DNA of 64,000 bases. Origin: Vitis vinifera (lineage: Eukaryota; Streptophyta; Magnoliopsida; Vitales; Vitaceae). Position numbers and translations under genes: made by a program. The notes beneath the pieces are model-generated. The model made no database searches. It had not been told where the DNA came from and saw only the letters and a program-made list of their open reading frames with translations. Positions 22,763 through 41,500 of this stretch are shown one piece after another (position 1 is the stretch's first letter; the number at the start of each line of letters is the position of its first letter). The stretch is taken from the NCBI RefSeq assembly GCF_030704535.1, contig NC_081807.1, positions 2,149,001-2,213,000 on the forward strand, given 5' to 3'.

Positions 22763-25400
22763 GCACAATTTTCCAGCATTCTGGCCCTTTTCACTAGTGG
22801 ACTTGAAGAAAATTACGGCATGGTTTCAAAATGGAAATAGCATAAATTAAATTTAAATTAAGATAAAATTGAAGAAATTTAATTGGAATTTTACAACTTG
22901 TGTTAGGGATGGATGAATATCGGAAAAAAAAAATCAATTTTGCTAACAATACCTTTTCACGCTATTCTTTTGCAACTTGAATATGGAACTTAGATAGATT
23001 GATCGAGTTGATGAATAACTTAAACCCAATTTGAATTAAGAAATAATCACCCCGAAATACTCTAGTCAAGTTCAATCTAACTTTATATTTCTAAACTCAA
23101 GTTGAGTTCGGGTCGCTTAAATTAAACTCGAGTTATTGAGCAAGTTTGTTAGGCTGTATAATTCAAAATTTATTTATAATATTATTTTAATGTATTTATA
23201 TATGAAAAATTAAATAACAAATATAAAACAATTTCAAGAAAATGAGAGAAGAAAAAACATAAATTTATATATTTTCTAAAAAAATAAAAAACATATGATA
23301 TAATTTTATTTTTTTCTTACAAATAAAAAAATAAAATAAATATGATTATATATGATAAAATGTATTATAAATATTATGAAAATATTAAATAAGTTTGGGT
23401 TAGGTGCAGGTTATCTAACCTTAGCCCAAGTCCCACCCAAATTGAACTTGGATTGAAAAAATCTAACTCAAATTATTTATATTATTTAAAATCAGTTTTC
23501 TTTCTAAATAAATGGGTAGATTTTTAATGTGCATTATTTATATAGATTTATCATTATTTTATTTTGATGATTAGTAGTAAATCAGATCTTGACATAAATT
23601 CAAAATTAAATTACTCATAAAAACAATAAAGAATTGTAAAGAAAAACTTATAAAATAATTTTGACAACAATTTTTAAAAAATAATTCTTAATTATTGTTT
23701 GGAAACTTAAATATCGATAAATGTATTTTATACTCACTTGGTGTTTTTTTTTAATTAAATAGAATTTAATTTAATTTAATTTAAAATAAAATTTAATAGT
23801 ATTGAGTATTAAATTGTTTGTTATTTTATTATTTATTTCTATTAAGTATTAATGGGATAAAAGTTGTATTGAAATTGTTTTAAAATTTTAATTTTAGCAT
23901 TAAGAAAAAATTCAAAAATTTTGTTTTTTTTTTTCTATTAAGCACAAAAAATTTTAAACATAAAAATTAAAAACAAACGATTTAAAGTCTAAATGTAAAT
24001 TGTATTTGATATTAAGTTAAAAAAACAAACAAAGTAAATTTTTTTAAGGTATTTTCAATTATTTATTAGAGCACTTTAAAAAAACAAATGAAATTACCTT
24101 AAATTTACTTTTAAAAAATTACATATTTTGATAATAAATTCTTAAAAATATGTTTTATATGAAAAGTTTCGATATATCTAACTATCTAAGTTGGGGTGAT
24201 TTAATAAAATTTAATATTTATTATTTAATGATTTAAATTGACTTTAAGTTAAATTATTTTTAGGTTCTTAACCTAAAACTTATTACTTAATTTTTATTTT
24301 AAGTATTAAGGTTTTTTTTTATAATAAAATTAATTTAAAATTTATTCGTAATCATCAAATTAATATATTTATACTTATAAATTATAATTAAGACAAAGAA
24401 GGTTGAGTAATAAAGGTTCTAGAGCAACAAAAGAAATCATGAAGGTAATTAGGGAAAATTGAGATAAAAATATAAAATAAAAATTTGGACTTAAGAATAA
24501 GTTAATTGTTTTTATTTATTACTTAAATTTATTTTTAATTTTAAGTTATACTGATAATTATTTTACTAAACATATTTAACTTATTTAATAACTTAAATTA
24601 AGTTATTAAGTCACTTTAAGTTATTAAGTTGGTGTACCAAATATTAAACTAGTATTTGTTTTTAGCTTTTTGTTTCTAATTTTAAAACACAAAAAATAAT
24701 AATAATTTTTATACAAAATACAAAAATTCTTTAAAAACTCATCTTGAAAACATAATGATTTTTTAAAATTGATTAAAAAATATTGAGATATTAAAAAATG
24801 TTTATTACCTCACATTAAAAAAATTTTGAAAGTAATTTTTAATGACTTAAAGAAAAGTACAAACCGTACACTTATACAAAAAATTTCATTTTTAAATATC
24901 AAAAATTGAAAATACCTTCAAATTAAGTCTTTAAAAACAATATTTTTATTTAAAAAATAAATAAAACAATTGTTTTCAAAATCAATTTCCAAACATAAAC
25001 TTAGGGGCTGGAGGCAGAAAGCTAGCAAAATTAGCATGAGTAGAATTTTCACAATAAATTTATATTGAAAGTAAAAAAAACACTAGAGATTAAATTTAAC
25101 ATTTTAAAACCATTTTTAAACCCTAAAAAAGCTTATAAATGTCTAAGAATTTTCCCAATAAATTTATAGAAATTAGAGGAAAATAAATCAATAAATTAAA
25201 ATGATTTTTGAACCGTCAACAAAATTCATAAATTTGAAATTATAATTGGAAAGCTCACAATTACTAATAAAATTTTAAAATTAGAATTATTAAAATTCAT
25301 AAATTGAGGTTTTTAATAAAAAAAATAAAGCATGAGACTTTAAAATCTACATATTTTCGTGAGAAAATACAAAAGGCGCCAGTGTAGACGCCTCTTTCCC
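22763..25400. other. A+T-rich spacer with eroded MITE-like modules
   Basis: No gene is seen. The tracts 24230-24650 (repeated ttaagttattaagt motifs and their complements) and 24650-25010 (gtttttagctttttgtt... ending ttccaaacataaactta) look like decayed inverted-repeat MITEs. G+C content rises after 25370, where the FAR1-OTU gene leader begins. Confidence 0.5.
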
Positions 25401-25921: not shown

Positions 25922-28505
25922 ATGGACTATACGAATGTTTTCACAACTGACGCAATTCACCCTAGTAGAGAAGCTTTGATCGAATGGGTCCGGGAGACCG
26001 GTAAGAGGAATGGAATGGTGATTATAATTCAAAGAGCTGATATAGGTGCTACAAATAGGAGCAGGCCTAGAATCACATTTGTTTGTGAAAGAAGTGGAGC
26101 TTATAGGCATACGGGGATGGATAAGGGGGAGGAAGGAAAAAAGAAAAGGAAGAGAAAGGCCACAGGAACCAAAAAATGTGGCTGCCCTTTCTCTTTGAGG
26201 GGTATCAAGTTGCCACTAGCCGATGAATGGACGTTGGTAGTTAAATGTGGAACTCATAACCATCCAGGAGGTCAGCATGTTGAGGGACACTCCTTTGCTG
26301 GCCGGTTAAGTATGGAAGAAATCGGTATATTGATTGACCTGTCAAAGAGTCAGATGAAGCCAAAGGAAATCTTGAATACCCTAAAGGAGAGAGACGGGCT
26401 TAATTGCACAACAATAAAGGGTATATACAATGCAAGACATAAACATAAACTAAACGAAAATGCTGGTGGGTCACTGATGCAACAACTCATGAACAAGTTA
26501 ATGGAGTTTAAGTACATTGAGTGGCATAGGAATGATGAGCATAATAACTGTGTTAGGGACTTGATGTTTGCACATCCTTCATCCCTTGAGTTGTTACGTG
26601 CCTTCCCAAGGGTCTTGATCATGGATTGTACATACAGAACCAACAAATACCAATTACCTTTGCTTGAGGTGGTTGGTGTTACCTCGACTGAGAAGACATT
26701 CTCTGTTGCTTTTGCCTATCTTGGGTCTGAAAGAGAGGAGGCCCACACTTGGGCATTGGAGAGATTGAGGAGTATGATTGATGATGCCATGCTTCCACGA
26801 GTAGTTATGACTGATAGGGAACCATCCCTTATGAATGCCCTCCAAAAGGTGTTCCCAATGGCTTCAAATCTCCTATGCAGGTGGCACATTTCAACAAACA
26901 TCCTCGCAAATTGCAAAATTTTTTTTGAGTCAAAGTCAAGGTTGGACGCTTTTATTTCCATGTGGAACATAGTAGTGCTTGCTGAAACCGAAGATGAGTA
27001 TGCAAATCGCCTTAACCAGTTGGAGTCACACTTTCATAGATATATACAGGCCATTAATTACTGCAAGGAACAATGGTTGTTGCCGTATAAGGAGAAGTTT
27101 GTGGCAGTTTGGACGAACAAAGTCATGCACTTTGGTAACACCACAGTGAATAGGTATGCAACTAAACTGCATTATAAGAATCGATATTTTAGACCGGGAA
27201 ACTGTTTACTAACAATTTTACATGTCACCTAATAGGGCAGAGTCAACACGTGCAAAACTAAAGAGGCAGCTAGGCTTGTCTCGGGGTGATATTGAGAGCT
27301 CATGGCCAAAAATCCATTCTCTGCTCGAGTTGCAACACATAGATATAAAAACATCATTTGAGATTAGTTTAACAAATGTGCAACACAACTTCAAAGATCC
27401 ATTATATGGTGAGGTAAGGGGAAGTGTTTCGAAGTCTGCATTGTGCATATTGGTAGATGAAGCAAATAGATCTGAGAGTATTGGAGTGGATGCCTCTGCT
27501 TGTGGGTGTGTGTACAGTCGAACTCATGGGTTACCCTGTGCCCATGAGATATCTTCATATAAGATTAGAGGTCAACCCATCCCTTTGGCATGCGTAGACC
27601 CCCACTGGAGAAAACTTGATCTAGTATCAGTTAGCGGGAAAAAAGTGCAGGATGTGAGTTTTACCACTGCCATGGAACTCTTCTACAAACGATTTATGGA
27701 TGCTGATGACATTGGCAAGCAGCAGTTGGTGATGAAGTTGATGGAGTTAGTTAATTCAACTTCCACTTCCCTTGTTGCACCAAAAGAAAATGTGAAGACC
27801 AAAGAGGGATGCACATCTTCATTTCCAGAGGGCTTGCAGCCATACATCATGCATGTGAAGGATGTAGCTGCAGATGGTAATTGTGGCTTTCGAGTTATAG
27901 CATCTGCTATGGGCATGGGTGAGGAAGGGTGGCCTCAGGTGAGGAGAGACATGCTGTTTGAGTTACGCACATACTGGGCTGAGTATGCCCAGTTGTTTCG
28001 GGATCCAATACGGGTTGATGAGCTTATTCATGTGCTTGAACACTTTCAGAGTCCTGCTGATTATGATAGATGGATGACTATGCCTGATATGGGGCACATT
28101 ATAGCCTCCAGATACAATGTTGTCCTAGTTTATATTTCAATGCAGTTGTGCCTTACCTTCCTCCCACTCAGGTCAGCGCCAACACCACTACCTATGCGTA
28201 GGGTTTTGTCAATAGGTTTCATCAATGATAATCACTTTGTGGAGGTAATGTTTATAATTTAGTTATGTGAACATATTGTTTACTGCTGTATGTAGTTAAC
28301 TCATCCTGTTTGGATTATTATTATGTAGATTTTGATGACAACTGGGGCTCCCATGCCACCTGTTGCAAATAGTTGGTCCAAGAGCTGTTATCCATGTGCT
28401 GAAGGTTGGGCAACTCCATATGCTGCATACATTAACATGTTTCATGGCCTTGTTTCTAATGATGTTGCCACACAAGATACTATGCATTTGGATAGTGACG
28501 GCTGA
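25922..28505 (+). CDS. FAR1/MULE transposase-like protein fused to SWIM and OTU protease domains
   Basis: Three exons, 25922-27153, 27236-28244 and 28329-28505, separated by short introns of 82 and 84 bp (the first with a CTAAC branch-point-like site), give an uninterrupted 805-residue protein. In order: a FAR1-type zinc-binding region (C55, C86/C88, H112/H114); a Mutator-like transposase core with D235 (MDCTYRTN), D298 (MTDREPS) and a glutamate near 357-359; a SWIM finger C500-H514 (CGCVYSRTHGLPCAH); and a C-terminal OTU-like cysteine-protease domain with D624-C627 (ADGNCGF) and H744 (NDNHFVEV). The key residues of both enzymes appear present. A 5' UTR intron (25491-25889) is likely. I found no clear long terminal inverted repeats, so it may be a host-kept (domesticated) transposase gene; a mobile MULE with ends I missed is the alternative. 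Its function is unknown. Confidence 0.85.
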
Positions 28506-29080: not shown

Positions 29081-29480
29081 TTTTTAGAGAATTTACTCAT
29101 ATCCCATTGTTGAGTGAAATAAGGCTTTTCTTTCTGGAGAAGAAAGGTTTAGACGTGGAAGACTAAAACCCCATTCCACTGTGTGACAGTGGATCCAGGT
29201 ACGCTTCTGACTTATTTTTCTTGATGATTTAATATGATCTTGATTTTGAAATTAAAATATAAAGAAAAATAAGTTGAAGTCCTCAGTCTAAATAGTTTTT
29301 TTAGAGAATTTACTCGTATCCCATTGTTGAGTGAAATAAGGTTTTTCTTTCTGGAGAAGAAAGGTTTAGACGTGGAAGACTAAAACCCCATTCCACTGGG
29401 TCACAATGGATCCAGGTATGCTTCTGACTTATTTTTCTTGATGATTTAACATGATCTTATAACATATGATCTTGATTTTG
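29081..29480. repeat. about 217-bp direct duplication
   Basis: Copies begin with tttttagagaatttactc at 29081 and 29298. They share a near-identical 150-bp core containing gaagaaaggtttagacgtgg and ggatccaggta(c/t)gcttctgac, then diverge. No coding content is recognised. Confidence 0.85.
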
Positions 29481-29529: not shown

Positions 29530-29880
29530 GTTTGGATAATCCTACAAGTAGTTTGGCTAATCCCTACAGATATTTCCCATTGTTGACAATCTTGTCTGAC
29601 AGGGGCTGGTTGTACATGTTTACCCTTACAGCAGACAATCCCCGGCAAGTATGCCATCAAATGAGGGAGAAGGGCTTTGCTGCAAGCACTGTTGTCCAGA
29701 GATCAACTCAGGAGAGTCTCCATGTTATCAAGTTCTGGCAGGATTTTGGTATTGGAACAGAGCAAAGGAAATTGTGACAATAAGCAAACAGATCCAGCAA
29801 AGGTCATGGAGTCTCTACTTCCACCATTTCCTCAATTGCCATTCTGGAGAAATGGCAACAGCATGTAAAAAGTGAAAGCT
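29530..29880 (+). pseudogene. HEMK2/N6AMT1-type methyltransferase, C-terminal remnant (copy 1)
   Basis: An open frame at 29532-29777 contains LSDRGWLYMFTLTADNP, then QMREKGFAAS and VVQRSTQESLHVIKFW. This matches the C-terminal 60 residues of eukaryotic HEMK2 (PrmC-like glutamine methyltransferase of release factor eRF1; human ends LLSPRGLFYLVTIKENNP..., Arabidopsis At3g13440 is closer). The SAM-binding region and NPPY motif are missing, so this piece alone cannot be an enzyme. Its 3' flank (ccatttcctcaattgcc...gaaatggcaacagc) is shared with copy 2, so the duplicated unit extends into former UTR. Confidence 0.8.
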
Positions 29881-30289
29881 TCAAAGGTGAGATTGTGTTC
29901 ATTCTTTTGTTCAATTTTTCTGTTCTATTTCCATATGGTCCTTAGAGTCTTGGACACAGCATTGTTGTGAAATGTTAGAAGCCCATATCTGATTCTTTGG
30001 TGCTGCTATGGGGCTTAGATGCAGTACTACTTTTATCCATAAAATGTTTAGCATTTCATTTTTCCTTGTTTTTTGGTCTCCTTAACTGGGTGGGTTTGAT
30101 ATACTCCTTATTGTGGCTTATCAGTGAATTTGCTTTTATTTTTTTATTTTTTATTTTTAAATTTTTAGTGAAGGAAGGTGCTCTTCTATTCACTCTTTTT
30201 TCATTAGATAGTCTATCATTCATCTGTGACAACTGACTGGGTATAAGCAAGAAACTGCTACCAGGCGAGAGACTATTTGAGTAAAGGCG

Positions 30290-30850
30290 GTCCATGTTCT
30301 CAGTCCCTTATATCATATAAACCGACCTGTTAGAGCATCATCCAACAGCATGGAAGTGGGTTGTTGGCTTGTCGCAGTGGTTATGTTATCTCTTCTCTAG
30401 CTCTCATACTTGTGCCCTTCATGGGGTTCATTATTTGGCTGCTGTCATCCACCCTCATGCAGCAGTGAGGTTCATGCCTTCTGCCAAGTTGATATCCACT
30501 GGCATGGCATCAGGACTGGAGAGAAACTTGGCCGGATTGGTTGATGTGTAGTGGGCTATCCTGGAACTGCCATTTCGGGGCTCGGGGGCGAATGGGCAGG
30601 GATAACCAATCACCTGTCCGACAGAGGCTGGTTATATATGTTTCACTCTCACAGCAAACAACCTCACAAATATGCCTCCAATTTAGAGAAAAGGGCTTCC
30701 ACCTCCACAACTGTTGTCCAAAGATCAACTGAGGAGAGTGTTTTGATTCTCCAACGAAGTGGTTCCTGCTAGAGTGTTGGAGTCCCTGCTTTCCCCATTT
30801 TCTCAGTGACAATGCTGCAGAAATGGCAGCAGCCGCAGATATATAGCTTG
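30290..30850 (+). pseudogene. HEMK2/N6AMT1-type methyltransferase pseudogene (copy 2)
   Basis: Longer remnant of the same gene. About 30330-30550 retains EHHPT, then GVHYLAA and ASGLERNLAGLVDV, matching the SAM-binding half (Arabidopsis has GVHYLATD and ATGLEKRLAGSVDV). About 30620-30770 retains the C-terminal part (LSDRGWLYMF, TTVVQRSTEES). The middle, including NPPY, is lost and the pieces lie in different frames, so it is dead. No introns are evident between segments that are far apart in the protein, which would fit a processed copy, though I know the exon structure of the parent gene too poorly to be sure. Confidence 0.8.
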
Positions 30851-33150
30851 AAAGCTTAGACCTGTGACATTGAGCTGAGATCCTCGTTTTCTCTTCAATT
30901 TTTCAGTTCTATTTCCGTCACGGAAAATCTATTTCAGATTTGGTGTATGCTTCGGGTTTACTATTTGGCTTGATTAAATCAATTTATTTTTTCATAAATT
31001 ATTTATTTATTTTTATTATATGGTTGAGAATTGGATGACCAAAACATAAGAAAATGAATAATTAAAAAATCAATTTCCCTCTTTTAATTAAAATTTTTTT
31101 TTTTAACACAATATTCTGCTACGGATGTTGAAAGACATTGGAAATAATCTTTTATGGTTCATATCACCGTAATTACGTATCATAAAAATAAATTATTAAT
31201 TAGATTATTTACAAAATATTTGAAACTAGGAATTTGAGGGCTTTACCCTGGGTTAGAGGGAGCCCTTCCAGAAATTCTCGATGGCCTAGGCTTAACCCAG
31301 GCCAAGGAGGGGGTTTGGAAATAGTTTTCAACCAGCAATTGACGCGCCTCGGTTAGAACCTCACTAGCTGCGTCATTGCCCCAAGCGCAAAGATGCCTTA
31401 GCAATATCCTCTGGTGTCCCTTTTATAGTCAATGTTTCTAACTCAGTACTTCTCTCCATCCGATGTGGGACGCAACGCCACTCTTACGAGAAAGAAACAC
31501 CATTCTAATACACCCCTCATTAATCTAAATCTTCTTCACATTAATTTATGACAGGGAAAATGATTTGTACAATTGTATTTTGGAAAAAAAATTGGTGGAG
31601 AATTTAAGAAAGTGAATCATTTTTTATTTGAATAAAATAAGAAACCAATGATAAAGCTGTTAAGAAAAGATTAAACTATAATATTAATTATTTTAGGGTC
31701 GGTGTGAGCTTTTCATTCGCAATTTTAATGAATAAAAATATTCCTGAAATAGTACCTGAATTTCTTTGCATCTAATAAATCAAATGATAAATTTTTGCAT
31801 TCCGCTAACGAAAATATTACAAAAATTAAGAAAAAGTGAGTTTTTATTCCATAATTTTAAAAAATATAAAAAAAATCCGAAAACTTTTATAATTCAGTTT
31901 TACCTTCGTTCATTTAAAAATATTTTAAAATATATATGTATTTTTTCCTTACATAATTATTTTTTAAAATACTCTTTTATTTGATGATATTAAACAAACT
32001 TATCAAAAAATTAATTTATCATTTTAATTTAATAAAAGTACTTTAAAAATAAATATATTATAATTTGTTATATAATATGATATATAAATTATTCTAGAAA
32101 TTTTTTTAAGAATCCTCAAGTGATAAATAAAATTCATCTAATTCCTTAATTAATAGTAATTTTATATCATGTATTATATAAGTTAACTCATTTTCTCATT
32201 TTTTTAAAATTAAATTAAATTAAAATTTTGTTAATTGACATCAATAATAAAATAAAAAATTTAAAAATTTAAAAATACAATTAAAACTAAAGTACTTAAA
32301 AATTAAATAAAATTAAAACAAAAAACTTAAAAATTAATACAATTAAAACCAAAAACTAAAAAAATTTAAAAATAGAATTTTGACTCCCATTGAATTTCCA
32401 ACTCTTTCTCAATATCTATATTTTTAGTTTTAATTATAATTATAATTATTAAAAATTCCTATTTTATTAATTTCAAATTAATTCTTACTGTATTTTTTTT
32501 AAAATAGTGTTATTAATGTATCAAATAAAAGGATTATTTTAGAAAATAATTATTTAACTTTTGAAAAAGTGCATTTATTTTTCAAATATTTTTAAGATTA
32601 TTTTTTCTATATTTTTTAAAATTAGTGAATCAAAACCTTTTTTTTTTTTTTTTGTAAAATTAGTGAGTCAAAACTCACTTTTTCCAAAACAATATATTTT
32701 CAAAACAAATTTTAACAAAGTGTTTTATCATTTTTTTGAATTAGAAAATTTTCTATATTTATAGAAAATTTACAAACCTATTTTTTGAATTAAAAATCTG
32801 TTTTTCATTTTAAAGAACAAAAAAAATATTTAAAACTAGTTTGAAATTGGACCAAATATTACGATCCCATCATTGCCCATATGACATTTATTTTTAAAAT
32901 TAAAATCCGACATTCAAATATTTGATCTAAATACAAAAATTTAAAAAAAAAGTTTAAATCTTATCCAAAATAAATAGTAATTTTGTCCCCATTTCAAATA
33001 ATTTTTATCACAAATTAATTAAGTTGTATTTAGATTAGAGAACCAGACCCAAAAAATCTGCCACGTGGCACCTACCAGTTATGCAACAAGATGAATCAGG
33101 CAACGCACATCCTTGGTTCCTCCATTTATTTTTTTCCAGAAAAACAACAG
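30851..33150. other. A+T-rich spacer with one G+C-rich patch
   Basis: Mostly T/A runs. The patch 31230-31530 is of normal composition, noncoding in all frames, and includes ccgatgtgggac, a motif frequent in plant interspersed repeats and seen again at about 33300. It may be a fragment of an unclassified repeat. A G-box (ccacgtgg) lies at about 33062. Confidence 0.45.
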
Positions 33151-38575: not shown

Positions 38576-41500
38576 GAAAATTGATTAGTGAATCTTGGGG
38601 AAGAAAGTTCAAGGAAATATCTCAACCATGCAATAACTTTTGCTTTGGGTATCATATTATATACACGGACACATACAAGTACACACGACACTGCAGCAAA
38701 TATTTTTACCGAATGGGCCATAGACCAAGATCTCCACAATCTCTCAACTTTGCCAAAGATTATCCAAAATCATTTTTTTTTATAATCATCAAAGTATCGT
38801 GTTTGATTTTTGAAAGTGCTGTCAAAAGGAAAATTTTCCTAAAACTTGTTGCCGTTTAAATTGTTTTTCACGTGTTTTAGTCTAACTTGATAAGATTATG
38901 GTGAGGTCTGTTATCTTTCTAATCTCTTAAAATTCTTCTATGAATCGATGGTGTGGTAGTTTATCCCACTAATCTCTTAAAGTTCATTCCCTCTCATGTT
39001 TAATCTCCTAAAATCCATTATTTTTTGTTCTTGTCTAATCTCCTAAAATTTATTGAATTCAAAATAGGTATACATGGTTAAGAAACCCAATTGTTATTTG
39101 CAACACTATTTTTACTAATATAACATTTTGCATTTCTAAATTACCCTCCCTTATTCTTTCCCAATCTCTCTCCTCTCTCCTCCCCAACCTCACTCTCAAT
39201 TACACCCTTTTTTTTATTTTTATTTTTCCTTATTTTTTCCCAACCCCACCTCACATTTTACCCACCCAACCCCCCACCCCACATAAACTTTGTTTTTTTT
39301 TTCTTTTCATTTTTTCACATTAAATTGTTTTTCATATTCTTCTAGATGCCAAAGCCCCACTCAGGATGTTGGAGCCCCACCCAGGTCGTCGGTTTTTTTT
39401 AATAAATATATGTATATTTTTTTATTAAAAATGAAAGTTATAAATCTTACCTAAAATTGTTATAAGATGTTGAATTTTGATATTTATTATTTATTATATT
39501 TCGTATGTGATTTATAATCTTAATCAACTAGAACTTAGGTTTAATATGTTGAGAGGAGGTCAGAGAGAGTTCTTTATTAAAAAGGGTATATATGAAAAAA
39601 AAAATGATAAAAAAGTGTTATGTTTAGTAAAAGGGATATTGCGAATAGCAACCCCCTAAAGAAAAAGAGAAACCCGAAACTTTTTTTCATATCAAATATA
39701 TAATAATAAAAACTTATTTCCTTATTCAATAGAGATATTAATATCACAAATATAAAATGTGCGGCTCACAGCACAAAACCAAGTAATAATAATCCACTCC
39801 TTCCTTCCTCGATATTGTTCACTTGAATCCAATAAATTTTCAAGATTTTCCAAACAGAATCCAGTATATCAAAAACTCGTTGCGAGACATCATGAATCGT
39901 CACTGAAATTAAAAATAATTCATTGCCATACTCTAGGCATCAGTTACTGCTGGACACCGGTGACACCCACGCTCCAGCGTCGATTTCAATGCCTTGTACT
40001 ACATCTCAACACTTGCTTTTCTTCAGTACATGTTTCTGGGCAATTTGTATAGGGCCATTTTTTTTTTTTTTCACTAAGTATTAATATTTATATAATTATT
40101 ATTAAATATTTAAATTAAAAATTAAAAAGAATAAGTTTGATTAGAATTTAGCAAGACACGTCTGAAAAATGTTGTCCATACACATTTATATGGTCCTGAC
40201 ATGTGGGGGCTCTGTTGGTTACCAAAAATGGTCTGTAGGGGCAATGGCATGTGCTGTGGATACCCACCATCAATTGGATGCATTGTATGGAATCATAAAT
40301 CATTAGGATAAAAAAGAAGAAAGAAATCCACCATCATTGATTCATTCTGTTGCTTTTTGTAGGAATTTTCCTCACCGAGAAAAGGTGGGAAAAGGAAAAT
40401 CAATCACAGATTTGGTGAACATTATTTTATCCTAGAAAGGATTATCATAGATTTTGTCACCTAATCCCACTTACCAAACAGATGGGGCTCAAAATAAAAT
40501 TGTTTTGAAGGGTTATGTTAATGTATCATTTGATTTACATCATCTCCCATTTGTCCAATTCATCCAACACGTTCTAATCATTTTTTATTTTTTATTTTTA
40601 CTTTATAAATTATTTCTATTTATACTATTTATAAATAATAAAAAATTAATATTAAAAAATCACAATTATTTAAAGTCAATGGATGGTTATCTTAAGAAGT
40701 GTTTTTAAAATTCGTTTGATAATAATTCTATAATACATTTTTAATATTTCTAACACTTTAAAAATTTTGTAATTCAAATATTAAAAATGTGAAAACCATT
40801 TTTTAAAATCACTCCTAAACACATTTTTAATTTAAAAAACGTTTTTGAAAAAAAATTAGGTATGTGACAAATTTTAAGAAACACTTTTAAAAATTTTGAA
40901 AATCATTTATAATATTAAAAATAAAAAAACATTTGACAAGTAATTCTCCTATAAATAATTTAAGAGAAAATGCTTTCACTAAAAGTAATTTAAGTAAAAA
41001 TACTGCTAAACACACACTTAATCACTTATTAAAATACCTTCCATTTATTTTAAGGTATTGCCAATCTTTGTTTGTTTGTTTTAATCTATATTTTATCTAT
41101 TAAAAGATCGGTTTGATCTGAATTAGTTTGTGAAAAATCTTAAGAATCACATGTTAAACATGAGAGAGATCAGATTAGTCAAAAAGGAAGATTGAGGTCA
41201 CTACAGTAAATTTCTATTAAATTCTAGCAGAAATGTAGACCACATTCAATGAAATGTTCCAAAAGAAAGAAAAAAAAATGATAGAAAGGAGAAGGAAAAA
41301 GAAAGAAAATGGAAATAAAACTAACTTTGAAGTTATATTTATAGTGATGTCATCGTCTTCTTCCATCATCTCTTCACCCGGTACTCCAAAACCCTAATTT
41401 TATTCTTCTTTCTATTTCTTTCCTCCAGGTTCTTTTTCCTTTTCATTCATCCCCTCCAACGGCTAAGGATGAATAGCAATAGAAGAAAACGAACTGGAAA

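Follow-up and report, generated by a model that had tools for sequence, protein, structure and literature searches.

The locus at positions 25922–28505 of the analysed window (the whole 64,000-nucleotide stretch of the Vitis vinifera genome) raises the question of whether an intact gene that joins the parts of a MULE transposase to an OTU-like domain is a mobile element or a protein that now serves the plant. The initial annotation described an 805-residue frame over three exons with short, well-formed introns, and splicing of 25922–27153, 27236–28244, and 28329–28505 reproduced this single stop-free frame with GT-AG junctions. Four splice combinations give a stop-free frame (798, 800, 803, and 805 aa), of which the 805-aa form retains the NRAES and NHFVE motifs and agrees with the positions of gaps in several relatives. 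When intron 2 is retained, the frame reaches a stop at 28262 and the product is 752 aa long. The features of the gene are as follows.

25922..27153, + strand: exon 1, codons 1–410 plus two bases of codon 411; covers the zinc-finger region at the N-terminus and the larger part of the transposase core
25976..26266, + strand: FAR1/AFT-type zinc-finger region, aa 19–115 (Pfam AFT and FAR1 models)
26612..26899, + strand: MULE transposase domain, aa 231–326 (Pfam PF10551, 1.7e-24)
26624–26626, + strand: D235
26813–26815, + strand: D298
27154..27235, + strand: intron 1, 82 nt, GT-AG; several relatives are gapped there, at residue ~411
27236..28244, + strand: exon 2, through codon 747; E413, SWIM motif and OTU-like core
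27240..27242, + strand: E413 in NRAES, likeliest third catalytic acid (conservation; order as in Muta1)
27501..27545, + strand: SWIM motif C-x-C-x9-C-x-H, C500/C502/C512/H514 (exact motif)
27810..28244, + strand: OTU-like core, aa 603–747 (motifs and local alignment; profile tests negative)
27873–27875, + strand: D624
27882–27884, + strand: C627
28233–28235, + strand: H744
28245..28328, + strand: intron 2, 84 nt, GT-AG; several relatives are gapped there, at residue ~749
28329..28505, + strand: exon 3, codons 748–805; C-terminal tail with the weakest constraint

The MULE transposase model PF10551 scored 86.5 bits against a Pfam cut-off of 27.6, and a second RNaseH-like Pfam model, PF21056, matched at 6.2e-14. 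For the zinc-finger region, the AFT model was above its own cut-off (25.4 vs. 21.6 bits) and the FAR1 model below it (23.5 vs. 28.1 bits). Pfam gave no SWIM match in the 805-aa protein, though the CxCxnCxH motif is exact, and a search of NCBIfam returned no match. The transposase residues D235 and D298 and the four SWIM ligands were found where they had been claimed. The third acid, however, had been assigned to E357/359, which is unlikely given the variable residues at both positions among relatives; in the younger family described below, residue 357 is Q in 4/4 copies and residue 359 is E in only 3/4. A likelier candidate is E413, which is kept in the younger copies (E in 4/4, as NRxES) and fits the D-D-W-E order of Muta1, where D214, D283, a conserved W401 and E419 are found and the triad was tested by mutation (PMC5225508). 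Across the 11 relatives covering this position, six have E and five K. With W397 sixteen residues upstream of E413, and C319/H322 forming the CxxH, the D-D-CxxH-W-E set (D235, D298, C319/H322, W397, E413) would be complete.

The C-terminal domain is very probably an OTU domain, a judgement that leans on motifs. D624, C627, and H744 are present as claimed, within DGNCGFR and NDNHF, i.e., a DGNCxFR box followed downstream by His, and C627 is kept in 13/14 and H744 in 9/9 of the relatives covering those positions. That the tail is instead an unrelated family-specific domain sharing a DGNC-like motif, and not an OTU protease, is improbable, although the profile methods lean that way: for OTU, Pfam gave no match to the 805-aa protein even at E 10, a profile search of solved structures returned nothing at E up to 1, hhalign reached E 0.0026 at a probability of only 11.6%, and a family profile did not rank the genome's cellular OTU above shuffles. 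A Pfam scan of eight family members produced one OTU match (E 0.19) and one Peptidase_C65 match (E 0.098), no better than the unrelated models WRW (0.098) and DUF4191 (0.18) in the same scan, and a single-sequence fold (pLDDT 43) was too poor for a fold search. Set against this, the only two solved-structure matches, both weak (E 0.21 and 0.42), aligned at DGNCFFR; these entries are named RNA-dependent RNA polymerase and we take them to be nairovirus OTU domains. Local alignment of the tail with the cellular OTU gene also scored 64, compared with at most 48 in 1000 shuffles; by semi-global alignment the score was only 2.4 sd above shuffles and was reached by 10 of 500.

Relatives of the gene were sought in a genome of 495.6 Mb in 21 contigs, where a DNA search gave at least 36 matches and a protein search 70 among the matches listed. 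Twenty-seven distinct places were compared, most of them 30–55% identical in amino acids and the shorter pieces higher; FRS-like ORFs (25–28% identical, several intact) and some further matches were left out of this comparison. Stops were present in all 27 relatives compared, with 281 counted over 10,428 aligned residues; some of these stops lie in read-through introns. In DNA, the matches listed were 65–67% identical to this gene over 1 kb, the best over 300 bp being 73%, and short pieces of 52–105 bp were 74–81% identical. No near-identical copies were thus found among the matches listed, these lists being lower bounds. Scans of viral contigs revealed no relative.

Two families can be told apart among the relatives: a decayed one, mostly of 65–80% DNA identity with common non-coding sequence and including two closer sets at 90–97%, and a younger one (L039–L042 and L045) whose members are 83–94% alike. 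Three copies of the younger family measure 4181–4285 bp, whereas L042 and L045 are partial; its core as query gave 46 matches, of which 41 were pieces of one end. Among its five copies, L039 and L041 carry the end motif TTGCTATTCRCAACAYC at both ends, two others carry it at one end, and L042 lacks it; 9-bp flanking repeats occur in two of the three copies that could be checked (L039 and L040, not L041), a count without a chance control. Proteins of this type were thus mobile in this genome. Three of the places, L054, L055, and L026 (C12:12.19–12.26 Mb), are copies of a relic's OTU end that are 90–97% alike over kilobases and lie within 70 kb, which suggests that a decayed element was duplicated locally.

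The idea of a special fusion is not supported, as the same architecture is present in at least two dispersed MULE families of this genome. A unique fusion was therefore rejected, the OTU-like tail being common to the decayed and younger families, and it follows that the tail arrived with the transposon. The OTU part alone as query gave 33 matches, two of which are this gene, several of which fall beyond the places examined, and most of which carry stops; the genome's cellular OTU gene was not among the 33. One difference concerns the distance between the SWIM and OTU parts, compared in 10 relatives: in six of them (L053, L004, L035, L039, L041, and L042) it is 105–157 nt longer than in this gene, the extra stretch resembling, by eye, a basic linker of about 35–50 aa. 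For L051, L052, and L006 no extra stretch was seen in the alignment, although the DNA of L052 shows a similar stretch by eye, and for L040 no measure was obtainable. As the linker is present in both families, it was probably lost from this gene.

The initial annotation had also relied on the lack of terminal repeats, and it is correct that no convincing TIRs are found near the gene: the spanning inverted pairs are short, AT-rich and about 71–78% alike (e.g., 24331–24390 with 31170–31228, E 0.001), and the terminal motif of the younger family is absent from 22–32 kb. The use of this absence as evidence for a host gene was rejected, because the same search revealed no convincing flanking TIRs for six relics of the decayed family and those of the younger family are only about 20 bp long. 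The region around the CDS shows no homology, and this was not counted, since at position-3 distances of 0.51–0.81 non-coding DNA would hardly align.

Several repeats lie in the neighborhood. Upstream of the gene, 24205–24641 is 80% identical to L046:8075–8511, apparently another dispersed repeat. Just downstream, 29081–29458 contains two direct copies of 161 nt (96%, 217 nt apart), and further repeats about 1 kb apart are present at 29688–30916. At 39081–39675 the window holds an internally deleted non-autonomous derivative, about 590 bp long, of the younger OTU-MULE family with both ends joined; its pieces are 68–87% alike to L039–L042 and L045, and it is flanked by the 8-bp repeat AGAAACCC. 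The end motif in this derivative is not beyond chance (18/100 shuffles reach two matches), but the sequence match is. Of 10 ORFs scanned in 13272–63654, nine had Pfam matches (a leucine-rich repeat, a polyprenyl synthetase, two O-methyltransferases, two RPAP1 pieces, a Sec1, and two reverse-transcriptase-related pieces); this gene lies between the polyprenyl-synthetase and O-methyltransferase genes. Most of the scanned ORFs belong to ordinary gene families, a point in favor of domestication.

Selection was assessed by means of codon positions. The branch leading to this gene has lengths of 0.125, 0.086, and 0.425 at positions 1, 2, and 3, respectively, a four-fold excess at position 3, whereas ten relic tips (range 0.08–0.31) differ little between positions and have no consistent position-3 excess; departures among them include L005 (0.125/0.142/0.193) and L004 (0.312/0.212/0.220). 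Although this test was rooted by an outgroup that is saturated, at 1.41 for position 3, it shows purifying selection on the branch of this gene that is absent on the ten relic branches. Constraint from the transposon phase and from the host phase cannot be separated on this branch. In 400 runs of simulated neutral drift, the frame stayed stop-free in 2.2% at 0.05 substitutions/site and in 8% at 0.03; little of the 0.425 branch can thus have been neutral. The depletion of CpG was rejected as a test because the groups overlap (0.32 for this CDS, 0.19–0.38 for nine decayed-family relics, 0.46–0.59 for four younger copies, and 0.15–0.67 for five neighbor ORFs).

By region, the ratio of positions 1+2 to position 3 between this gene and the ancestor of the relics was 0.24 for the zinc finger, 0.20 for RNaseH, 0.43 for SWIM, and 0.29 for the OTU core (bootstrap 0.21–0.45), the last being similar to the transposase core. 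These values come from an outgroup-free test with 25 bootstraps each, without a relic control and at the position-3 distances given above, on fragmentary relic alignments and over a path that includes the constrained stem of the relic family itself. All four regions show constraint, whereas that on the last exon is weak (0.60, range 0.31–0.93, for tail aa 751–805). An earlier test with a distant outgroup gave 0.16 (relic control 1.09) for the zinc finger, 0.27 (0.94) for RNaseH and 0.20 (1.02) for SWIM. For OTU its position-3 branch came out at 0.000, or 0.066 when the tail was included, against relic controls of 0.75 and 0.98, which is the opposite of constraint; this OTU result was judged an artefact of outgroup saturation, and the outgroup-free test was used instead.

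Two catalogued entries resemble this gene. VvFRS3 (Vitvi03g00193_t001; Yao 2025, PMC12112247) has 752 aa, 85,954 Da, pI 8.69, instability 40.56, aliphatic index 85.56 and GRAVY -0.283, whereas the intron-2-retained product of this gene has 752 aa, 85,987 Da, pI 8.69, instability 40.47, aliphatic index 85.04 and GRAVY -0.284. The two masses differ by 33 Da, and VvFRS3 shares its chromosome number with this gene if our contig C3 is chromosome 3. This gene thus seems to be VvFRS3/Vitvi03g00193, matched by computed properties rather than by sequence, with the annotated form lacking exon 3. It is catalogued there as an FRS gene and named three times, never in the expression sections, and the words OTU and peptidase are absent from the main text of that paper (PMC12112247). 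The gene is probably also Hopvine-2 (AM457042.1; Benjak 2008, PMC2528002), by span (2585 bp vs. 2584 bp here) and by description. Hopvine-2 is likewise a single copy without TIR or TSD, has a matching EST, and was proposed as a potential domesticated transposase of the Hop family; the main text of that paper also does not contain the word OTU (PMC2528002).

On balance, we regard this as a gene without close copies that derives from a MULE already carrying the FAR1-type finger, DDE core, SWIM and OTU-like domain, and that, with reasonable though far from full confidence, most likely serves the plant, since it remained intact and under purifying selection whereas its mobile relatives degenerated. 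Of the earlier proposal of a transposase-derived host protein, the MULE origin, intactness, retention of all regions, lack of close copies and purifying selection hold, and the missing TIRs no longer count in its favor. Its 805 stop-free codons, set against the stops in every relative compared, count toward domestication; that the constraint on the branch includes its time as a transposon counts against it. The loss of transposase activity described for FHY3/FAR1 in the accessible text of a review (PMC13306707) is not visible here, as all three catalytic acids are kept. We infer a host function, a nuclear role and protease activity. By analogy with FHY3/FAR1, the product would most likely be a nuclear DNA-binding protein, in which the zinc finger would find DNA sites, the RNaseH-like core would serve dimerisation and the SWIM region would make contacts, while the OTU-like domain may trim ubiquitin or ubiquitin-like tags off the protein or its partners at the bound site. 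The coupling of DNA binding to ubiquitin removal on chromatin put forward in the initial annotation is a hypothesis of this kind.

An alternative that we consider unlikely, albeit the best of those remaining, is that this gene is still a transposon, the one autonomous copy left of an almost extinct MULE lineage, recently inserted or immobilised, with its constraint stemming from past transposition. The complete D235/D298/E413 set with CxxH and W397, and an architecture equal to that of the mobile families, are what such a copy would show, and constraint alone cannot tell the two phases apart; yet among the matches listed no sister exceeds 73% over 300 bp or more despite a position-3 branch of 0.425, and 22–32 kb contains neither a convincing TIR nor the younger family's terminal motif. 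A bolder form of domestication, in which the whole transposase was recruited with its own deubiquitinase-like enzyme as a sequence-specific binder removing ubiquitin at target sites, the loss of the linker marking the change of role, appears doubtful to us. Least probable is that only the DNA-binding and transposase parts were domesticated, with the OTU-like part a passenger and the 752-aa form the real product, for although the published gene model equals that form in length and pI (PMC12112247) and the tail is weakly constrained, the OTU core ratio is close to that of the transposase core, and C627 and H744 are kept, also in the 752-aa form.

The preferred reading, a MULE-derived host gene, may be compared with known systems. 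The FHY3/FAR1 and FRS family is likewise MULE-derived with the same order of zinc finger, MULE and SWIM, but this gene differs in a FAR1 match below the Pfam cut-off, an extra OTU-like tail and the retention of all DDE acids, and it shares only 25–28% identity with this genome's FRS-like ORFs (themselves presumed to be FRS). MuDR-6_HM of Hydra (group 14), an animal transposon, is a MULE listed with "Ovarian Tumour Gene" and is likened here by that table entry (PMC6446971). Ginger1 transposases have a C-terminal OTU or Ulp1 protease but, unlike MULEs, belong to a Gypsy-integrase-like superfamily, and that group has reportedly given rise to two or more vertebrate host genes (PMC2836005). OTU/ULP1-type proteases are reported in several transposases, their role there being conjectural (PMC2836005, PMC6446971). 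The closest plant case is a soybean clone table with "Ovarian tumor otubain" genes, which the part covered does not connect to MULEs (PMC2613891). No plant MULE with an OTU domain appeared among the titles and abstract openings listed from open-licence papers, though subscription journals or Repbase may hold one; none is described in the accessible text of PMC12112247, PMC2528002, PMC6446971, PMC2836005, PMC2613891, PMC13306707, PMC5715367, PMC13026280, and PMC5225508, and a term search of PMC8599713 showed the words OTU, peptidase and protease to be absent.

The gene is real, probably domesticated and probably already catalogued under two names, and its OTU-like part, which has been kept by selection, is seemingly unreported under either. 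The presence of a copy kept by selection beside decayed and younger mobile relatives leads one to ask if the protease part has a use other than in transposition, and it suggests that FRS genes already in catalogues could contain a protease-like domain that annotation has missed.
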